Assembly (NCBI RefSeq): GCF_023516555.1 | Contig: NZ_JAMGBD010000001.1 | Location: 434,001 to 498,000 of the forward strand | DNA: 64,000 bases | Source of the DNA: Sphingomonas alba | GTDB taxonomy: Bacteria > Pseudomonadota > Alphaproteobacteria > Sphingomonadales > Sphingomonadaceae | Reading direction: 5' to 3' | Part shown: piece after piece, positions 4,893-23,166 of the stretch | Position numbering within the stretch: position 1 is the stretch's first letter | How the letters are laid out: each line of letters begins with the position of its first letter | The notes under the pieces: model-generated | Seen by the model: only the letters and a program-made list of their open reading frames with translations | What the model was told of the DNA's origin: nothing | The model's database searches: none | Translations under genes and position numbers: made by a program

Positions 4893-5858
4893 ATGAACGG
4901 AGACAAGCCTCTAGACTGCCTGGTGATCGGTGGTGGGCCTGCGGGCCTGACGGCGGCCATTTACCTGGCGCGGTTCCACATGGACATCCTTGTCGTCGAC
5001 GAGGGCAAGAGCCGCGCGAGCTGGATCCCATGCACCCGCAACGTCTCGGGTTTTCCTGAAGGCATCAAGGGCACCGACCTGCTCGGCCGGATGCGCGACC
5101 AGGCGCAGAAATATGGCGCCAAGATCCTGACCGAGCGTGTGACCAAGCTGGAACGGGATGAGGGCAATTGCGTGTTCACCGCAACCTGGGGATCGGGCTG
5201 CGTTCAGGCCCGAAAGGTATTGCTGGCGACGGGTGTCACCAATCGCCGCCCTCCGATGGACGAGGCGTTGCATGACGACGCGCTCGCTCGCGGCCTCATC
5301 CGCTACTGCCCGATCTGCGACGGGTTCGAGGTCACCGACAAGAAGGTCGGCGTGATCGGCAGCGACAGCCACGGCGTCGCCGAGGCCGTTTTCATCCGCA
5401 GCTATACCGCCGACGTCACCCTGATCGCGCCGGACAAGGCGCTGAGCCTCAAGCCGGAAGATCAGGAGAGACTGAAAGAAGCCGGCATCGGCTGCATCGA
5501 CGGTCCTGCCCTTGCTGCGGCAATCTCGGACGAATTCATCGTCGTCGAGACAGCGGAAGGGCCGCACACGTTCGATACGGTCTATCCAGCGCTCGGAAGC
5601 GACACGCATGTCCAGTTGGCGGATTTGGTCGGCGCGGCCTTGAACAAAGATTGCAACATCACCGTCGATAGCCACCAGCGTACCAGCGTGCCCGGACTCT
5701 ATGCGGCGGGCGATGTGGTGATCGGCCTCGACCAGATCAGTCACGCCATGGGCGAAGGCGGCGTCGCCGCGACGACGATCAGGAACGACCTATGCACCGA
5801 GCAGCCGCGCCTGCGCGAACCGACGGAGGCGATGGAGGAAGCCGAGAGCGGGTCCTAG
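4893..5858 (+). CDS. thioredoxin-reductase-like FAD oxidoreductase with an atypical NADPH site
   Basis: Flavoprotein of 321 aa in the thioredoxin reductase fold. It shows the FAD loop GGGPAGL (13-19), a CxxC redox pair in YCPICDG (Cys 139 and 142, the position of the TrxR disulfide) and the second FAD motif GLYAAGDVV. The NADPH loop, normally GGGDSA, is here GVIGSDSHGVAE, and the HRR-type phosphate-binding arginines are not visible, so an ordinary NADPH-thioredoxin reductase role is doubtful. ATG 4893 was chosen over an earlier in-frame start at 4815, which would lie inside trmD and lacks homology-like sequence. The gene is antisense to its neighbours inside the rimM-trmD cluster, and its TAG stop overlaps the rimM stop within one CTAG. 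Confidence 0.8.
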   Translation: MNGDKPLDCLVIGGGPAGLTAAIYLARFHMDILVVDEGKSRASWIPCTRNVSGFPEGIKGTDLLGRMRDQAQKYGAKILTERVTKLERDEGNCVFTATWGSGCVQARKVLLATGVTNRRPPMDEALHDDALARGLIRYCPICDGFEVTDKKVGVIGSDSHGVAEAVFIRSYTADVTLIAPDKALSLKPEDQERLKEAGIGCIDGPALAAAISDEFIVVETAEGPHTFDTVYPALGSDTHVQLADLVGAALNKDCNITVDSHQRTSVPGLYAAGDVVIGLDQISHAMGEGGVAATTIRNDLCTEQPRLREPTEAMEEAESGS

Positions 5859-18416: not shown

Positions 18417-19475
18417 TCAGCTCGCGCCGGCGTCCAGCAGCTTGTGGCGCTTCAGGGCGTGGCGCAGCTGGTCGTAGCTGAGCCCCAAAGCCGCCGCGGT
18501 CGCCCGCTGGTTGAAGCGGTTGGTCGCAAGGGCGTCCTCCAGCAAAGCCCGCTCATAGGCCGCAACTGCCCCGCGGAAATCGTCGGTCGACTGGGTTGGC
18601 CTGACAGTTGCCGGTGTGACCGCATCGGAAATGACTTCCGCGATTCCGGCGCTGGGCCGGTCGATCGGATCGACCGCGACGACCTCCCCCTTCCCCGGCG
18701 CCCAGGGCGATTTGAACGGATCGAACTGAATGGATTCGATCGCCCGTTCCGGGTCTTCGGCCCGATAGACCGCGCGCTCGACAACGTTGCGGAGCTCACG
18801 AACATTGCCCGGCCACGGATAGGATTCCAGGTCGGCCAAAGCCTTGGGCGAAAAGCCGGGCCAGTTGGGCCAATCAAGCTCCACCGCCATCCGGCGCCCG
18901 AAATGCTCGGCAAGCAGCGGGATATCGCCGGCTCGCGAACGCAGAGGCGGCAGTGTCACGACCTCAAATGACAATCGGTCGAGCAAATCGGCGCGGAAAC
19001 GGCCTTGCTCGACAAGGCTTGGGAGATGCTCGTTGGTTGCGGCGACGATGCGGACGTCGACTTCGATCGGCTTTGATGCGCCGATCCGGGTAACCTCGCC
19101 ATATTCGACCGCGCGCAACAGCCGATCCTGCGCCGGCGACGACAGGGTCGCCAATTCGTCGAGGAACAGGGTGCCGCCGTCGGCCTCTTCGAACCGGCCA
19201 TGGCGTGTTTTGGCGGCACCCGTGAAACTGCCGGCCTCGTGCCCGAACAGTTCGGCTTCGATCAAATTTTCCGGCAGGGCCGCGCAATTCATCGTGATGA
19301 GCGGCCCTGACCAGCGCGAAGACAAATGGTGGAGGCGTTCGGCGATCAGTTCCTTGCCGGTGCCGCGCTCGCCGATCACCAGGACGGGCCGGTTCAACGG
19401 CGCCGCGCGGCTCGCCCGCTCGACGGAGTCGAGAAAGGCCAAGCTCGACCCGACGAATTGATTGGCCCGTTCCAT
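18417..19475 (-). CDS. pspF: phage shock operon sigma-54 activator PspF
   Basis: AAA+ enhancer-binding protein that activates RNA polymerase-sigma54 at the psp promoter and is inhibited by PspA. The 352-aa protein has Walker A GERGTGKE (35-42), the sigma54-contact loop AGSFTGA (82-87; Ser replaces Ala of the usual GAFTGA), Walker B GTLFLDEL, and the R-finger region FRADLLDRLSFEVV. A C-terminal Fis-type helix-turn-helix (QRATAAALGLSYDQLRHALKRHK) follows a low-complexity linker. Like E. coli PspF it lacks an N-terminal sensor domain. Start 19475 is the ATG that gives the standard short N terminus; longer in-frame starts upstream are rejected. It is divergent from pspA. Confidence 0.93.
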   Translation of the reverse strand: MERANQFVGSSLAFLDSVERASRAAPLNRPVLVIGERGTGKELIAERLHHLSSRWSGPLITMNCAALPENLIEAELFGHEAGSFTGAAKTRHGRFEEADGGTLFLDELATLSSPAQDRLLRAVEYGEVTRIGASKPIEVDVRIVAATNEHLPSLVEQGRFRADLLDRLSFEVVTLPPLRSRAGDIPLLAEHFGRRMAVELDWPNWPGFSPKALADLESYPWPGNVRELRNVVERAVYRAEDPERAIESIQFDPFKSPWAPGKGEVVAVDPIDRPSAGIAEVISDAVTPATVRPTQSTDDFRGAVAAYERALLEDALATNRFNQRATAAALGLSYDQLRHALKRHKLLDAGAS

Positions 19476-19576: not shown

Positions 19577-19578
19577 AT

Positions 19579-19594
19579 TGGCATGGAACCTGCA
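19579..19594 (+). promoter_or_regulatory. sigma-54 promoter of pspA
   Basis: TGGCATGGAACCTGCA matches the -24/-12 consensus TGGCAC-N5-TTGCA, with the invariant GG (19580-19581) and GC (19592-19593) at the correct 12-nt distance. It lies 45 bp before the pspA ATG and faces away from pspF, the expected activator. Confidence 0.85.
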
Positions 19595-19638
19595 TAGTTC
19601 TCGGCAATAGGCGCCAAGGAAGTGCACGGAGTGCAGTG

Positions 19639-20307
19639 ATGGGTATTTTTTCCCGGACGCGGGATATCTTCGCAGCGAATTTCACCGAGCTGCTCGACCG
19701 GGCCGAGGACCCGGCGCGGATGATCCGCATGATCATCCTCGAAATGGAAGAGACTTTGGTCGAGGTGCGCGCCTCCGCGGCCCGCTCGATCGCCGACGGC
19801 AAGGAAATGCGCCGAGCCATCTCCCGGCTCGACGAACTCCAGAACAGCTGGACCGAGAAGGCCGAGCTCGCCCTCTCCAAGGATCGCGAGGACCTGGCCA
19901 AGGCTGCGCTCATGGAGCGGCAGAAGGCGGCCGACATGGCCGATGGCCTTCGCGCCGAGATCGCCGTCATCGAAGAAACGCTGAAGAGCTATGAGGCAGA
20001 CATCGCCAAGCTTCAGGGCAAGCTGCGTGAAGCTCGTGCTCGGCAGAATGCGATCGCCAATCGGATCGAAAGCGCCGTCACCCGTGCGAAGGCCCGTGAG
20101 CTGCTGAACGGCGGACGTACTGAAGATGCATTTTCGCGGTTCGACATCCTCGAGCGCCGTGCCGATTTCGCCGAAGGGCGCGCCGAGGCGCTGGGCATGA
20201 CCGGCCCGAAGTCGCTCGAGGAAGAGATTGCCGAGTTGAGGGCGTCGGAGAAGGTCGACGCGGAACTGGAGGCGCTGAAGGCCTCGCTAAAGTCCAAGGG
20301 GGCGTAA
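19639..20307 (+). CDS. pspA: phage shock protein A
   Basis: Peripheral inner-membrane ESCRT-III-like protein that binds stressed membrane and restrains PspF. The 222-aa protein is almost entirely coiled coil, with the amphipathic N-terminal helix MGIFSRTRDIFAANF, the family region LDRAEDPARMIRMIILEME, and the long KAELALSKDREDLAKAALMER helix. ATG 19639 was chosen because the family begins MGIFSR and upstream in-frame sequence belongs to the promoter region. The pspB GTG follows its stop without a gap. Confidence 0.95.
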   Translation: MGIFSRTRDIFAANFTELLDRAEDPARMIRMIILEMEETLVEVRASAARSIADGKEMRRAISRLDELQNSWTEKAELALSKDREDLAKAALMERQKAADMADGLRAEIAVIEETLKSYEADIAKLQGKLREARARQNAIANRIESAVTRAKARELLNGGRTEDAFSRFDILERRADFAEGRAEALGMTGPKSLEEEIAELRASEKVDAELEALKASLKSKGA

Positions 20308-20577
20308 GTGGAAGATCTGATTCCGGCAATTGCAATTGTAACCCTGTTCATCGCGCTTCCGTGGCTGGTTTTCCACTACATCACCAAGTGGAAGACGGCT
20401 GCGAAGCTGACGGGTTCGGACGAGAAGTTGCTCGACGAGCTGCATGACGCCGCCCGCAGGCTCGACGACCGGTTGATGACGATTGAGCGCATCATGACCG
20501 CGGAGAACCCCAATTGGCGGCAGAACACGCTGCCCGAGCAGCGCCAGCGCCTGCTCAGCGACGGAGATTACAAGTGA
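20308..20577 (+). CDS. pspB: phage shock protein B (membrane anchor with coiled coil)
   Basis: Small inner-membrane regulator that together with PspC recruits PspA during envelope stress. The 89-aa protein has an N-terminal hydrophobic helix (LIPAIAIVTLFIALPWLVFHYI), a basic WKTAAKL turn, and the PspB helix DELHDAARRLDDRLMTIERIM, then AENPNWR as in other PspB proteins. Start is GTG 20308, immediately after the pspA stop; the stop overlaps the pspC ATG (TGATG). The C-terminal LxxRLxxIExI unit recurs in the six genes downstream of pspC. Confidence 0.92.
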   Translation: MEDLIPAIAIVTLFIALPWLVFHYITKWKTAAKLTGSDEKLLDELHDAARRLDDRLMTIERIMTAENPNWRQNTLPEQRQRLLSDGDYK

Positions 20578-20966
20578 TGTCCACGCAACCTCCAAGCCGC
20601 ACGCGTTTCTATCGCGACACCGTCAACGGCAAGGTGATGGGTATCTGTGCCGGCATCGCCGACTACACGGGCATGGATGTCACCTTGGTCAGGATCATGA
20701 TGCTGGCAGCCATCCTGCTGGGCAGCGGCTCGCCGATCATGCTGTATTTCATCGCCGGCTGGATGACCCCGAAGAAGCCGCACGGCCTCGATTATATCGA
20801 CGATGAGGACAAGAAATTCTGGCAGGGTGTGCGCGCTTCGCCGACACGTAGCGCCCGCGACATCAGCAGCCGCATGCGCGACATCGACCGTCGGCTCGCC
20901 GACATCGAAAGCTATGTCACCACTGAAAACCGCAGCCTCGCCAGCGAAATCGAGCGCCTGCGCTAA
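20577..20966 (+). CDS. pspC: phage shock protein C
   Basis: Membrane sensor of the Psp response. The 129-aa protein has the PspC domain: RFYRDTVNGKVMGICAGIADYTGMD, then a hydrophobic helix MLAAILLGSGSPIMLYFIAGWM and the KKPHGLD turn. Its C-terminal region (residues 85-129) is a charged coiled coil, RMRDIDRRLADIESYVTTENR..., ending SEIERLR, which matches the module found in the small proteins that follow. ATG 20577 overlaps the pspB stop; the earlier in-frame start lies inside pspB. A 23-bp gap with GGGG precedes the next gene. Confidence 0.92.
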   Translation: MSTQPPSRTRFYRDTVNGKVMGICAGIADYTGMDVTLVRIMMLAAILLGSGSPIMLYFIAGWMTPKKPHGLDYIDDEDKKFWQGVRASPTRSARDISSRMRDIDRRLADIESYVTTENRSLASEIERLR

Positions 20967-20989
20967 GTATCTGATAAAAGGGGAATCAC

Positions 20990-21334
20990 ATGGACCCGGA
21001 AGCCCAACAAGCGCTCGATTTTGTAGTCACCATCCTGCCATGGGTCGTCGCCATCCTGGTGATCACCGTCGGCGGGTGGATGTTCAACACCTGGCTCAGG
21101 ATCAAGAACGGCTATCCGCTGGAAAACAGCTGGGGCAAGGCGATCCACCCGATCACCGACCGGGAGTCGGCCGAGCGGATCAAGCTCCTGACCAGCGAGA
21201 ATGCCGAGCTCCGCGCCCAATTGGGTTCGGTCAAGGACAGGCTTGAGACCATCGAGCGGATCATCACCGACCAACCGCATCGGCTCGCCCAGGAAATCGA
21301 TTCACTGTCGCTCATCGACGGAGGGAAAAAGTAA
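20990..21334 (+). CDS. PspB/PspC-type small membrane protein 1 of the extended psp operon
   Basis: The 114-aa protein has no named family that I recognise. A transmembrane helix (about residues 11-31, VVTILPWVVAILVITVGGWMF) is followed by a linker and a coiled coil from about residue 60 (ERIKLLTSENAELRAQLGSV). The end module is VKDRLETIERIITD...LAQEIDSL, the same pattern as the PspB helix and the end of PspC. A GGGG-containing Shine-Dalgarno site precedes the ATG. Its TAA overlaps the next ATG (TAATG). Probably an inner-membrane partner in PspA control; this is inferred from position and shared module only. Confidence 0.8.
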   Translation: MDPEAQQALDFVVTILPWVVAILVITVGGWMFNTWLRIKNGYPLENSWGKAIHPITDRESAERIKLLTSENAELRAQLGSVKDRLETIERIITDQPHRLAQEIDSLSLIDGGKK

Positions 21335-21633
21335 TGGGACCCGGCGAAGTCCTGATCGCTTTCATCGTCGTCGGCCTGCCGACGCTCGTCATCTACCACG
21401 GCTTCAAGCGCTTCTTCAGCTTCCGCGAAAAGAAGCTTGAGGTCGAGGCGGCCGGGGCGATCGAGAAGGCGGCGCAATATGCCGCCAGCAACGCCGAGCT
21501 CGAAGCGCGCGTCCGGGTCCTCGAGAAGATCGTGACTGACGGCGGCGTCCAGACGGCGGCCCAGATCGAAGCGCTGCGTGAAGTTCCACCGGCAGCACCG
21601 CGCCAGGTAACTAGGGAAGCCAGCAATGGATAA
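21334..21633 (+). CDS. PspB/PspC-type small membrane protein 2 of the extended psp operon
   Basis: The 99-aa protein has an N-terminal helix VLIAFIVVGLPTLVIYHGF, a basic KRFFSFREKKLEVEAA junction like that of PspB, and the coiled-coil module LEARVRVLEKIVTDGG... QIEALR. The tail is short and Pro-rich. It is most like the next gene product: the segments LEARVRVLE and TDGGVQTAAQIEALR are almost identical, which points to a tandem duplication. It overlaps the previous gene by 1 nt and the next by 8 nt, so translation is probably coupled. Confidence 0.8.
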   Translation: MGPGEVLIAFIVVGLPTLVIYHGFKRFFSFREKKLEVEAAGAIEKAAQYAASNAELEARVRVLEKIVTDGGVQTAAQIEALREVPPAAPRQVTREASNG

Positions 21634-21898
21634 TGTAGCGTCGTGGATCTGGGTCCTGATCCCGCTGGCAGCGATTGGCATCGCGCCGTTCAAGATGTGG
21701 ATACGCGTCAAGGAAAAGCAGATAGAGGCGCAGACTAACCTCGCCGCCGAAAAGAGCGCGCAATATGCTGCGCATGTCGAACGGCTCGAAGCGCGTGTCC
21801 GCGTACTCGAACAAATTGCAACCGACGGCGGAGTTCAGACCGCCGCCCAAATCGAGGCGTTGCGTGCGCCGCAGCTTACCCGAGAGTCCCAGCAATGA
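21626..21898 (+). CDS. PspB/PspC-type small membrane protein 3 of the extended psp operon
   Basis: The 90-aa protein has an N-terminal helix (ASWIWVLIPLAAIGIAPFKMW), a basic RVKEKQIEAQTNLAAEK turn, then the module LEARVRVLEQIATDGG... QIEALR. It is clearly a sister of the preceding protein. The last four bases (ATGA) are shared with the start of the next gene. Function is inferred only from operon membership and shared architecture. Confidence 0.8.
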   Translation: MDNVASWIWVLIPLAAIGIAPFKMWIRVKEKQIEAQTNLAAEKSAQYAAHVERLEARVRVLEQIATDGGVQTAAQIEALRAPQLTRESQQ

Positions 21899-22170
21899 AT
21901 CCCTTCGAAATGGTTGTCCTCATCGTGTTCATCGTCACGGTGGGGGGTGTGCTCCGAGGGCGCTCCGGCTTCCGCAATCGCCGCAGTGGCGTCGACAACG
22001 CCGCCTCGGTTGAAGATCGCGCTGAGACCATGCGCCTTCGCCAGGAAGTCTCCGACCTAAAGGAGCGCATCAAGGTGCTCGAACGCATTGCCGTCGAGAA
22101 GGAGGACACGCTCTCGCGGCAGATTGAGGAGCTGCGCACGCCGCAGCTTAGCGGAGATACGAAGCAGTGA
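21895..22170 (+). CDS. PspB/PspC-type small membrane protein 4 of the extended psp operon
   Basis: The 91-aa protein has a hydrophobic N terminus (FEMVVLIVFIVTVGGVL), a short Arg-rich segment (RGRSGFRNRRSG) and the coiled-coil LRQEVSDLKERIKVLERIA, then VEKEDTLSRQIEEL. The C-terminal half is nearly identical, in protein and DNA, to that of the next gene, so these two arose by recent duplication. It overlaps both neighbours by 4 nt. Confidence 0.8.
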   Translation: MNPFEMVVLIVFIVTVGGVLRGRSGFRNRRSGVDNAASVEDRAETMRLRQEVSDLKERIKVLERIAVEKEDTLSRQIEELRTPQLSGDTKQ

Positions 22171-22415
22171 GGGCGCCGGAGTTCATCCTCATCTTGATCT
22201 CGATGATGTTCGTGTTCAGCATCATCAGGCACAAGATGGGCATTCCGGCCCGCTCCATGCGCCAGATGCGCGGCGGCCCGGAGGACAGCCAGGAAACGCT
22301 CCGGCTGCGCCAGGAAGTCGGCGAGCTCAAGGAACGCATCAAAGTGCTCGAACGCATCGCGGTCGAGAAGGAAGACACGCTGTCGCGCCAGATCGAGCAG
22401 CTGCGCGACCAATAG
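22167..22415 (+). CDS. PspB/PspC-type small membrane protein 5 of the extended psp operon
   Basis: The 82-aa protein starts at GTG 22167 inside the preceding stop region (GTGA overlap). Its N-terminal hydrophobic helix is FILILISMMFVFSII, followed by a short basic linker and LRQEVGELKERIKVLERIA, then VEKEDTLSRQIEQL. The N-terminal half differs from its sister at 21895-22170 while the C-terminal half is almost the same, so the coiled-coil end is the conserved part. Confidence 0.8.
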   Translation: MRAPEFILILISMMFVFSIIRHKMGIPARSMRQMRGGPEDSQETLRLRQEVGELKERIKVLERIAVEKEDTLSRQIEQLRDQ

Positions 22416-22433
22416 GTTAGGCACGGGGGCTTT

Positions 22434-22718
22434 ATGAACGACGAGACTGCTGTTTTCCTGCTTCTGATCGGGTTCTGGTCGCTCTTGGCAATTGTCATGT
22501 TCCAGCGCTTTTGGACGATCCGCCGCCTGCGGAACAAAGTTGAGAAACTGACCCATGATGCGATCCGGAATGCGGCGGCCCAGGTCGCACCGAAGCAGGT
22601 CCCGGAGTCGGAAGATCTCATTCGGATCAGCAAGCGCCTGCAGGTGCTGGAGCGGATTGCTGTCGAGAAAGAAAACAGCCTGACCCGCGAAATCGAGGAT
22701 CTGCGCGCCGCCGGGTGA
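22434..22718 (+). CDS. PspB/PspC-type small membrane protein 6 of the extended psp operon
   Basis: The 94-aa protein is the last of the series. Its N-terminal helix is AVFLLLIGFWSLLAIVMFQRF, followed by a basic WTIRRLRNKVEKL segment as in PspB and an Ala/Pro-containing linker. The module is ISKRLQVLERIAVEKENSL then REIEDLR. An 18-bp gap with GGGGG separates it from the previous gene. sufE starts 31 bp after its stop on the same strand, so read-through into sufE is possible. Confidence 0.8.
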   Translation: MNDETAVFLLLIGFWSLLAIVMFQRFWTIRRLRNKVEKLTHDAIRNAAAQVAPKQVPESEDLIRISKRLQVLERIAVEKENSLTREIEDLRAAG

Positions 22719-22749: not shown

Positions 22750-23166
22750 GTGACCGCCCTGCCTCCGCTTTCCGACGTCTACGACGACTATCAGCTGCTC
22801 GACAGCGAGGACCGCTATCGACTGCTGATCGACCTCGGCCGGATGCTGGAGCCCATGCCGGATGCGTTGAAGACCGACGCGACCAAGGTGCGCGGCTGTT
22901 CTTCTTCAACCTGGGTGTATCCGACGCGGTTGGACGACGGCAGGTTACATTTCCTGGCGGACAGCAATGCGGCGATCACCAAAGGGATTGTCGCCCTTAT
23001 CCTTTCGATCGTTCAGGACCGCCCGCCGGAAGATATCGTCAACCTCGACATCCATGCCGAGCTCGAACCGTTCGACCTGAAGCGCGAGCTAAGCTCCAAT
23101 CGCACCCAGGGCGTGCCCAACATGATCAAGCTCATCCAGGAAACAGCGAAGAGGCTTGCTGTATGA
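22750..23166 (+). CDS. sufE: SufE-type sulfur acceptor protein
   Basis: Accepts persulfide sulfur from the cysteine desulfurase SufS for Fe-S cluster assembly. The 138-aa protein shows the SufE core: DRYRLLIDLGRML, then VRGCSSSTWV with the acceptor Cys at residue 50, and the helix ITKGIVALILSIV. Start is GTG 22750. It stands apart from any suf operon, downstream of the psp genes, and overlaps the next gene by 4 nt. Confidence 0.92.
   Translation: MTALPPLSDVYDDYQLLDSEDRYRLLIDLGRMLEPMPDALKTDATKVRGCSSSTWVYPTRLDDGRLHFLADSNAAITKGIVALILSIVQDRPPEDIVNLDIHAELEPFDLKRELSSNRTQGVPNMIKLIQETAKRLAV

Follow-up and report, generated by a model that had tools for sequence, protein, structure and literature searches.

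The phage shock protein (Psp) response serves as a model of the sensing and repair of inner-membrane damage in bacteria, and how so few small proteins discriminate between stimuli is a question that it poses. The Psp locus of Escherichia coli encodes one PspB and one PspC, and PspD and PspG are extra small proteins of the Psp regulon in gammaproteobacteria; contacts between the cytoplasmic domains of PspB and PspC reportedly silence the response. PspB and PspC make up a complex in the inner membrane; in the on state of Yersinia the cytoplasmic C-terminus of PspC binds PspA, freeing PspF (PMC5596341). In E. coli the leucine zipper of PspC is needed for its contact with PspA (PMC3068692), and "PspB duplicates" as well as "PspC fused to a divergent C-terminal PspB" have been described in psp operons (PMC11237479). 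Here we have analyzed a psp locus of Sphingomonas alba, which lies within a stretch of 64,000 nucleotides (contig NZ_JAMGBD010000001.1, positions 434,001 to 498,000; hereafter the window) and in which pspA, pspB and pspC are followed by six further small genes on the plus strand, x1 to x6, which we term the tail. The analysis supports x1 to x6 as a genuine family with homology to PspB and to the C-terminus of PspC, and on balance we lean towards reading the six products as extra PspB-type Psp subunits that would present a module shared by PspB and PspC.

A hidden Markov model (HMM) of the tail was built from 80 relatives in other genomes, with the sequences of the window excluded, and was run on the 476 open reading frames (ORFs) of at least 45 amino acids in the window. 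It ranked x1 to x6 at the top (E from 1.1e-28 to 2.5e-15), followed by PspC (4.6e-6) and PspB (2.4e-5), and no other ORF of the window came under E 2.2. The six genes, listed with the paralog classes described below, are x1 (20990..21334; class a, transmembrane helix and module; E 9e-27), x2 (21334..21633; class m; E 3.9e-23), x3 (21626..21898; class m, in a lineage apart from x2; E 1.1e-28), x4 (21895..22170; class z; E 7.7e-27), x5 (22167..22415; class z, GTG start; E 1.7e-25) and x6 (22434..22718; a divergent class z; E 2.5e-15). The coordinates bear out the original prediction, made from the letters of the window alone, that consecutive genes from x1 to x5 overlap by 1, 8, 4 and 4 nt; x6 follows after a gap of 18 nt. 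By position and by these overlaps the tail belongs to the psp operon, with co-transcription predicted. In profile comparisons by hhalign, both the tail set and a larger family set were aligned with PspB, with the PspC C-terminus, with PspA and with reversed profiles. The tail profile scored 93% with PspB (E 2.6e-7) and 93% with the PspC C-terminus, against 0.8% for PspA and 0.9-6.9% for the reversed controls; the larger set reached 92% with both PspB and the PspC C-terminus (PspA 1.7%, reversed 1.5-10.3%), and a profile of relatives from outside the family Sphingomonadaceae gave 93% with PspB, 75% with the PspC C-terminus and 5.5% with PspA. When tail proteins were scanned singly at E<=0.01, TIGR02976 (PspB) was matched by 35 of 86 and TIGR02978 (PspC) by 30 of 86, and a Pfam scan found a PspB match in 16 of 86. 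Within the window, x3 and x4 match TIGR02976 (E 7.9e-4 and 1.9e-4), and x1 matches positions 72-121 of TIGR02978 (E 0.0085); TIGR02978 was matched in its C-terminal part only, and no match to PF04024, the PspC domain, was found in x1 to x6. That the common module could be a chance coiled-coil pattern, the alternative named by the original prediction itself, draws on the shortness and heptad-like character of the region and on matches of some tail proteins to unrelated coiled-coil Pfam models (bZIP_1 in 6/86), but PspA, a coiled coil from the same genomes, and the reversed profiles fail to match and the other ORFs of the window score nothing with the tail HMM, so that we consider this explanation very improbable.

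The module had been proposed to run through PspB, PspC and all six tail proteins over about 27 residues. This holds for x1 to x6 and for PspC, whereas PspB carries the first half only (R..IERIMTA) and its consensus has no I(E/D)xL end. Of 74 PspB and PspC sequences, only 38 are fitted by a strict regular expression for the start of the module, and many of the misses are one or two positions off by eye. In one named locus (L195) the module of the last tail gene, which starts at 4898, holds a small internal repeat (ERIATERIAVEKE), again seen by eye. A second PspB match above the Pfam cut-off occurs in six other genomes of the family, in one of them only when neighbouring frame pieces are included, and in G071 it coincides with a tail match. 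Each of x1 to x6 has one hydrophobic segment near its N-terminus (best 19-residue Kyte-Doolittle mean 1.95-2.50), and a simple hydropathy test revealed no second hydrophobic span in the tail proteins. The C-terminal flank of the segment is more positive than the N-terminal flank in 319 of 375 tail proteins and in 35 of 36 PspB proteins, and the tail proteins are thus predicted to be single-span proteins with the C-terminus in, like PspB. The PspB arrangement, in which one N-terminal helix precedes a cytoplasmic helical C-terminus, is found by hydropathy and charge prediction and, for x1, by AlphaFold2, which places helices at residues 3-40 and 57-110 with modest confidence (mean predicted local distance difference test score, pLDDT, 74.2; predicted template modelling score, pTM, 0.29). 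The claim that every product of the operon's small genes has one N-terminal helix is therefore upheld for x1 to x6 and not for PspC, which lacks this architecture and has just its C-terminus in common with them. A search of solved structures returned six matches (best E 0.35), none of them convincing. In five sets of genus relatives chosen by eye, the mean ratio of non-synonymous to synonymous differences (pN/pS) was 0.29-0.54, and pN reached pS in none of 150 pairs.

The distribution of the tail was addressed in the genus, in the family and beyond. Tail genes are present in all 24 same-genus loci fetched, with one to six in each, the single-gene locus (L042) stopping at a contig end. In a sample of 149 family genomes the tail profile was matched at E<=1e-3 in 138, of which inspection removed G089 (PspB and PspC only) and G157 (PspB, PspC and a more distant relative), leaving 136 with a tail. 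Tail and psp genes occur together in 135 of the 149; three have psp genes without a tail of the four classes below, one (G137) has a contig that stops within pspC, nine have neither and one has a tail alone. In G105 the tail lies beside PspC near a contig end. The nine genomes in which none of PspA, PspB, PspC and the tail was found belong to seven genera (G057, G075, G101, G110, G128, G133, G158, G173 and G183) and apparently represent loss of the whole Psp system. The occurrence of relatives alone in genomes devoid of psp genes, which the original prediction had regarded as the mark of a fortuitous resemblance, was not seen within the family, where the sole tail-only genome, G122, is 66% complete and carries its tail genes on a 3.9-kb contig; no psp gene was found in this genome. 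Inside the family the six tail genes are thus supported as coming and going with psp. The premise of one PspB and one PspC per normal locus is true of E. coli, but psp loci of the Sphingomonadaceae normally carry a tail, usually of about four genes (six in the window). Named loci come from Sphingomonas, Sphingopyxis, Novosphingobium, Sphingobium, Blastomonas and others; these 80 loci (L194-L273) are the best-scoring of 343 relatives retrieved with class-a patterns, so that the set is enriched in class a, and the counts free of this bias are those of the 149-genome sample and of the sample of the taxonomic order. Among the 80, PspA and PspC are both present in 77 and exactly four tail genes in 46; L201 and L234 begin at, or a few hundred bases from, a contig end, L259 holds just a 39-residue piece of PspC, and no PspB was found in L240. 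One ORF (L050, 4246-4479) was removed from the tail set as it has no membrane helix. Relatives were found in one of 72,556 plasmid records. A search with x1 matched 3301 protein clusters, among the 120 listed of which the sole name given by the source is "hypothetical protein", so that a psp-tail family would place many proteins that lack a name in a context; x6, searched in the same way, is the less represented of the two, with 79 protein matches.

Paralog classes were assigned from a tree of 427 distinct sequences and 88 columns, because regular expressions for the C-terminus left 94 of 400 proteins unclassed. In this tree the tail proteins split from PspB with a local support of 0.78 and fall into four classes, a (support 0.42, weak), z (0.77), m (0.93) and f (0.93). 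Gene order was counted in 102 loci, four of 106 having been dropped as copies of genus loci. The commonest order is exactly f-a-m-z (39/102); class z stands last in 95, classes a and m are each present in 93, and class f in 58. In the 25 genus loci, which include the window, classes a, m, z and f are present in 17, 24, 23 and 1, respectively, and both number and order vary more than across the family (e.g., mmzaaz or mamaz), the window itself reading a-m-m-z-z-z. The notion of interchangeable anchors for PspA is therefore doubtful for the family as a whole, but order is looser in the genus of the window. The modules of x2 and x3 (28/34 amino acids identical) and of x4 and x5 (31/34) are near-identical as originally described, but since four old paralog classes recur across loci this likeness does not show recent stepwise duplication. 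For x2 and x3 such an origin was rejected: the two belong to distinct clades that each include relatives from other genus loci (the N-terminal part of x3 is 96% identical to a relative in L040), and 15 of the 28 identical residues use different codons. For x4 and x5, 11 of the 31 identical residues use different codons; both belong to class z but to different sub-clades and anchor lineages. From these placements the duplications in the window look mostly old. In seven of 375 proteins the anchor and module halves have different nearest classes, most clearly in L034_3869 (anchor a, module m) and possibly in L242_4627, L261_4344 and L272_4556 (six of seven anchor votes), while the conflicts in x6, L205 and L268 depend on poor or gapped anchor identity. 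With one convincing case of the seven, occasional exchange of modules between tail genes is possible. Beside these classes there is a fifth, more distant class of small membrane proteins (RGW.GWL.LK ... ELADLKER(I/V)RKLE), encoded after pspC or after the tail (L278:4606-4959, L282:3303-3539 and L285:3399-3623).

Outside the family, relatives are fewer. In the sample of the taxonomic order, the 35 listed genomes of the same family have two to six matches each at E<=1e-5 and 56 genomes of other families have one or two; in the class sample of 289 genomes, matches outside the family were found in four, three of them weak. All 16 other-family genomes that were checked encode PspB, even where the relatives lie away from psp. 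Five of them (G037, G480, G503, G543 and G544, all of one family) have a tail-type copy no more than 1 kb from PspB; for one further genome (G515) the place of the match was not seen. In three other-family loci the relative directly follows rpoD (L156:6012-6284, L157:5996-6268 and L158:6005-6277), and G503 and G037 each hold an rpoD-linked and a psp-linked copy. As single relatives lie away from psp, three of them adjoining rpoD, the pattern suggests that a stand-alone protein was recruited into the psp operon and then expanded. It could also be that the tail has a Psp-independent job and is just co-transcribed, its ancestor having been a membrane-anchored coiled coil of a generic kind that entered the operon; the scattered single relatives, the rpoD-adjacent copies and the placement, in the tree, of 15 of 16 outside-family relatives in the class m clade would agree with this, but the tail is absent from all nine family genomes in which PspA, PspB and PspC were not found and five other-family genomes keep a copy less than 1 kb from pspB, and we regard the idea as unlikely. 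Two further arrangements were observed. G507 has a second PspB-profile match next to its PspB (C6:187682-187843; 36.5 bits, above the Pfam cut-off) that escapes the tail profile at E 1e-5, this genome being among the ten described below without an adjacent tail match. In a different family of the order, a second, short PspC-like gene without the module lies in the psp operon and precedes one tail-type gene (L159:5724-5966, L168:3236-3490 and L277:5040-5276).

Genome G080 warrants particular attention. In its psp operon (L274:4306-5907) PspC matches only positions 3-67 of the 121 of TIGR02978, no PspB match was found anywhere in the genome, and pspC is followed by two tail genes, one of which matches TIGR02978 at 52-121 as well as TIGR02976. 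The tail genes of G080 thus apparently stand in for PspB and for the module of PspC, a natural replacement. Taking the family, the module homology, the operon-like arrangement, the predicted topology, the co-inheritance and this replacement together, all of them read from sequence, we favour extra PspB-type subunits. The tail proteins would be single-span inner-membrane proteins of the PspB type, N-terminus out and C-terminus in, probably expressed from one PspF- and sigma-54-driven transcript with pspABC. They may use the contact surface of PspB and PspC to pair with PspB, with PspC or with one another, and could cover the PspC module or take its place, thereby determining the timing and site of PspA recruitment to the membrane; stimuli might be divided among the classes. 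Since the tail proteins share the contact piece of PspB and PspC, the Psp alarm of this family probably includes sensor or anchor subunits beyond those of the textbook system. A more far-reaching version is tentative: sphingomonad Psp could be a multi-input sensor in which the PspA-recruiting module, carried by PspC in E. coli and Yersinia, is spread over about four to six differently anchored single-span proteins, each reading another membrane state and competing for PspC or PspA through the shared coupler, and in some lineages replacing PspB and the PspC module. A less probable explanation than extra PspB-type subunits, though compatible with them, sees in the tail proteins effectors of the stress response within the PspF regulon, anchored helical scaffolds outside signalling that would make the bilayer more stable or keep PspA oligomers in place, with several versions serving dose or different membrane zones. 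Its appeal lies in the position of the tail after pspABC, in its being common across the family and in the finding that PspB and PspC counter secretin toxicity in Yersinia apart from signalling (PMC5596341); the module is specifically of the PspB/PspC type, however, and the retention of tail genes in G080, where PspB and the module of PspC are gone, agrees with a role in contacts. A family with ordered PspB-type paralogs, together with G080, offers genetic material to separate sensing from coupling.

It should be noted that several findings weigh against the assignment as extra PspB-type subunits. All six tail proteins fall far below the curated cut-offs for PspB and PspC (for PspB at most 13.7 bits against 25.6 for PF06667, and 21.7 against 51.7 for TIGR02976), PspB and the PspC C-terminus score only 4% when compared directly, so that it is the tail family that bridges the two, and whole-protein ancestry is less certain than that of the module because the module is short and helical. 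The single-chain AlphaFold2 model shows a helix-linker-helix and no more. Three psp-positive family genomes lack a tail of classes f, a, m and z, G089 having no tail gene and G115 and G157 only the distant fifth class, and the Fisher p of 9.8e-12 for co-inheritance (G137 counted as tail-less, G122 omitted) comes from a test that treats related species as independent. In ten of the 16 other-family genomes no located match to the tail profile, PspB itself excepted, lies beside PspB, and relatives outside the family are often away from psp, so that a role in Psp does not follow from having the module and a membrane helix. In E. coli, PspB self-associates, its contact with PspC maps to membrane regions, a mutant of the PspB leucine zipper retains binding to PspC and not to ArcB, and the zipper of PspC lies in a periplasmic or two-topology region (PMC3068692); the membrane-region contact and the zipper mutant disfavour a simple cytoplasmic contact between modules.

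The remaining features of the locus are those of a psp operon, with PspF, PspA, PspB and PspC all present and in order. The divergent sigma-54 activator gene pspF (18417..19475, minus strand, ATG at 19475-19473; TIGR02974, 483 bits against a cut-off of 443.55) precedes the plus-strand genes pspA (19639..20307; TIGR02977, 262.7 bits against 242.95), a canonical pspB with a GTG start (20308..20577; PF06667, 89.2 bits; TIGR02976, 84.4 bits) and pspC with its C-terminal module (20577..20966; PF04024, 62.5 bits; TIGR02978, 126.1 bits against 104). A sigma-54-like promoter (TTGGCATGGAACCTGCAT) is predicted before pspA at 19578..19595 on the plus strand; as its pattern (19579-19593) occurs twice in the window against 1.33 expected by chance, support for the site comes from its position, and 14 of the 25 genus loci have a similar site 44-55 nt upstream of pspA. 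Between 19400 and 23400 no sigma-70-type promoter was found, and plus-strand terminator-like sites were limited to a weak one inside pspB (20351) and another beyond the tail at 22969. The tail ends at a sufE/csdE-like gene (22750..23166, plus strand; TIGR03391, 93.3 bits, below the cut-off of 136.4), and in the tail-less locus L281 a gene resembling it by eye directly follows pspC.

In relation to described systems, PspD and PspG were not among the matches of x1 to x6 in the family scans, no direct sequence comparison having been made. A literature search over titles and the beginnings of abstracts gave no description of the sphingomonad tail set; one sphingomonad genome paper names PspC alone, in a table (PMC5443232), and another refers to phage shock protein genes in general terms (PMC9241875). 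PspB duplicates in psp operons are thus already published (PMC11237479), while no published description of the ordered sphingomonad set was found among these sources. The systems of PMC11237479 resemble the tail in having extra PspB copies within the operon (e.g., AOL22920.1) and a PspB-like end of PspC, whereas its section 17 presents no ordered set, classes or stand-alone relatives and the word stem "sphingo" is absent from its main text. With the C-terminal region of PspC (about 72-121 of TIGR02978) the tail proteins share the full module including the EIxxL-like end, but they lack the PspC domain (PF04024). From PspB (PF06667/TIGR02976) the tail proteins of the window differ in scoring below the cut-off and in carrying the full module with its EIxxL-like end, from which the consensus of PspB departs past R..IERIMTA; they resemble it in the N-terminal membrane helix, the basic flank, the C-terminal helix with R..(V/I)(L/I)ERI, the place in the psp operon and the predicted topology.

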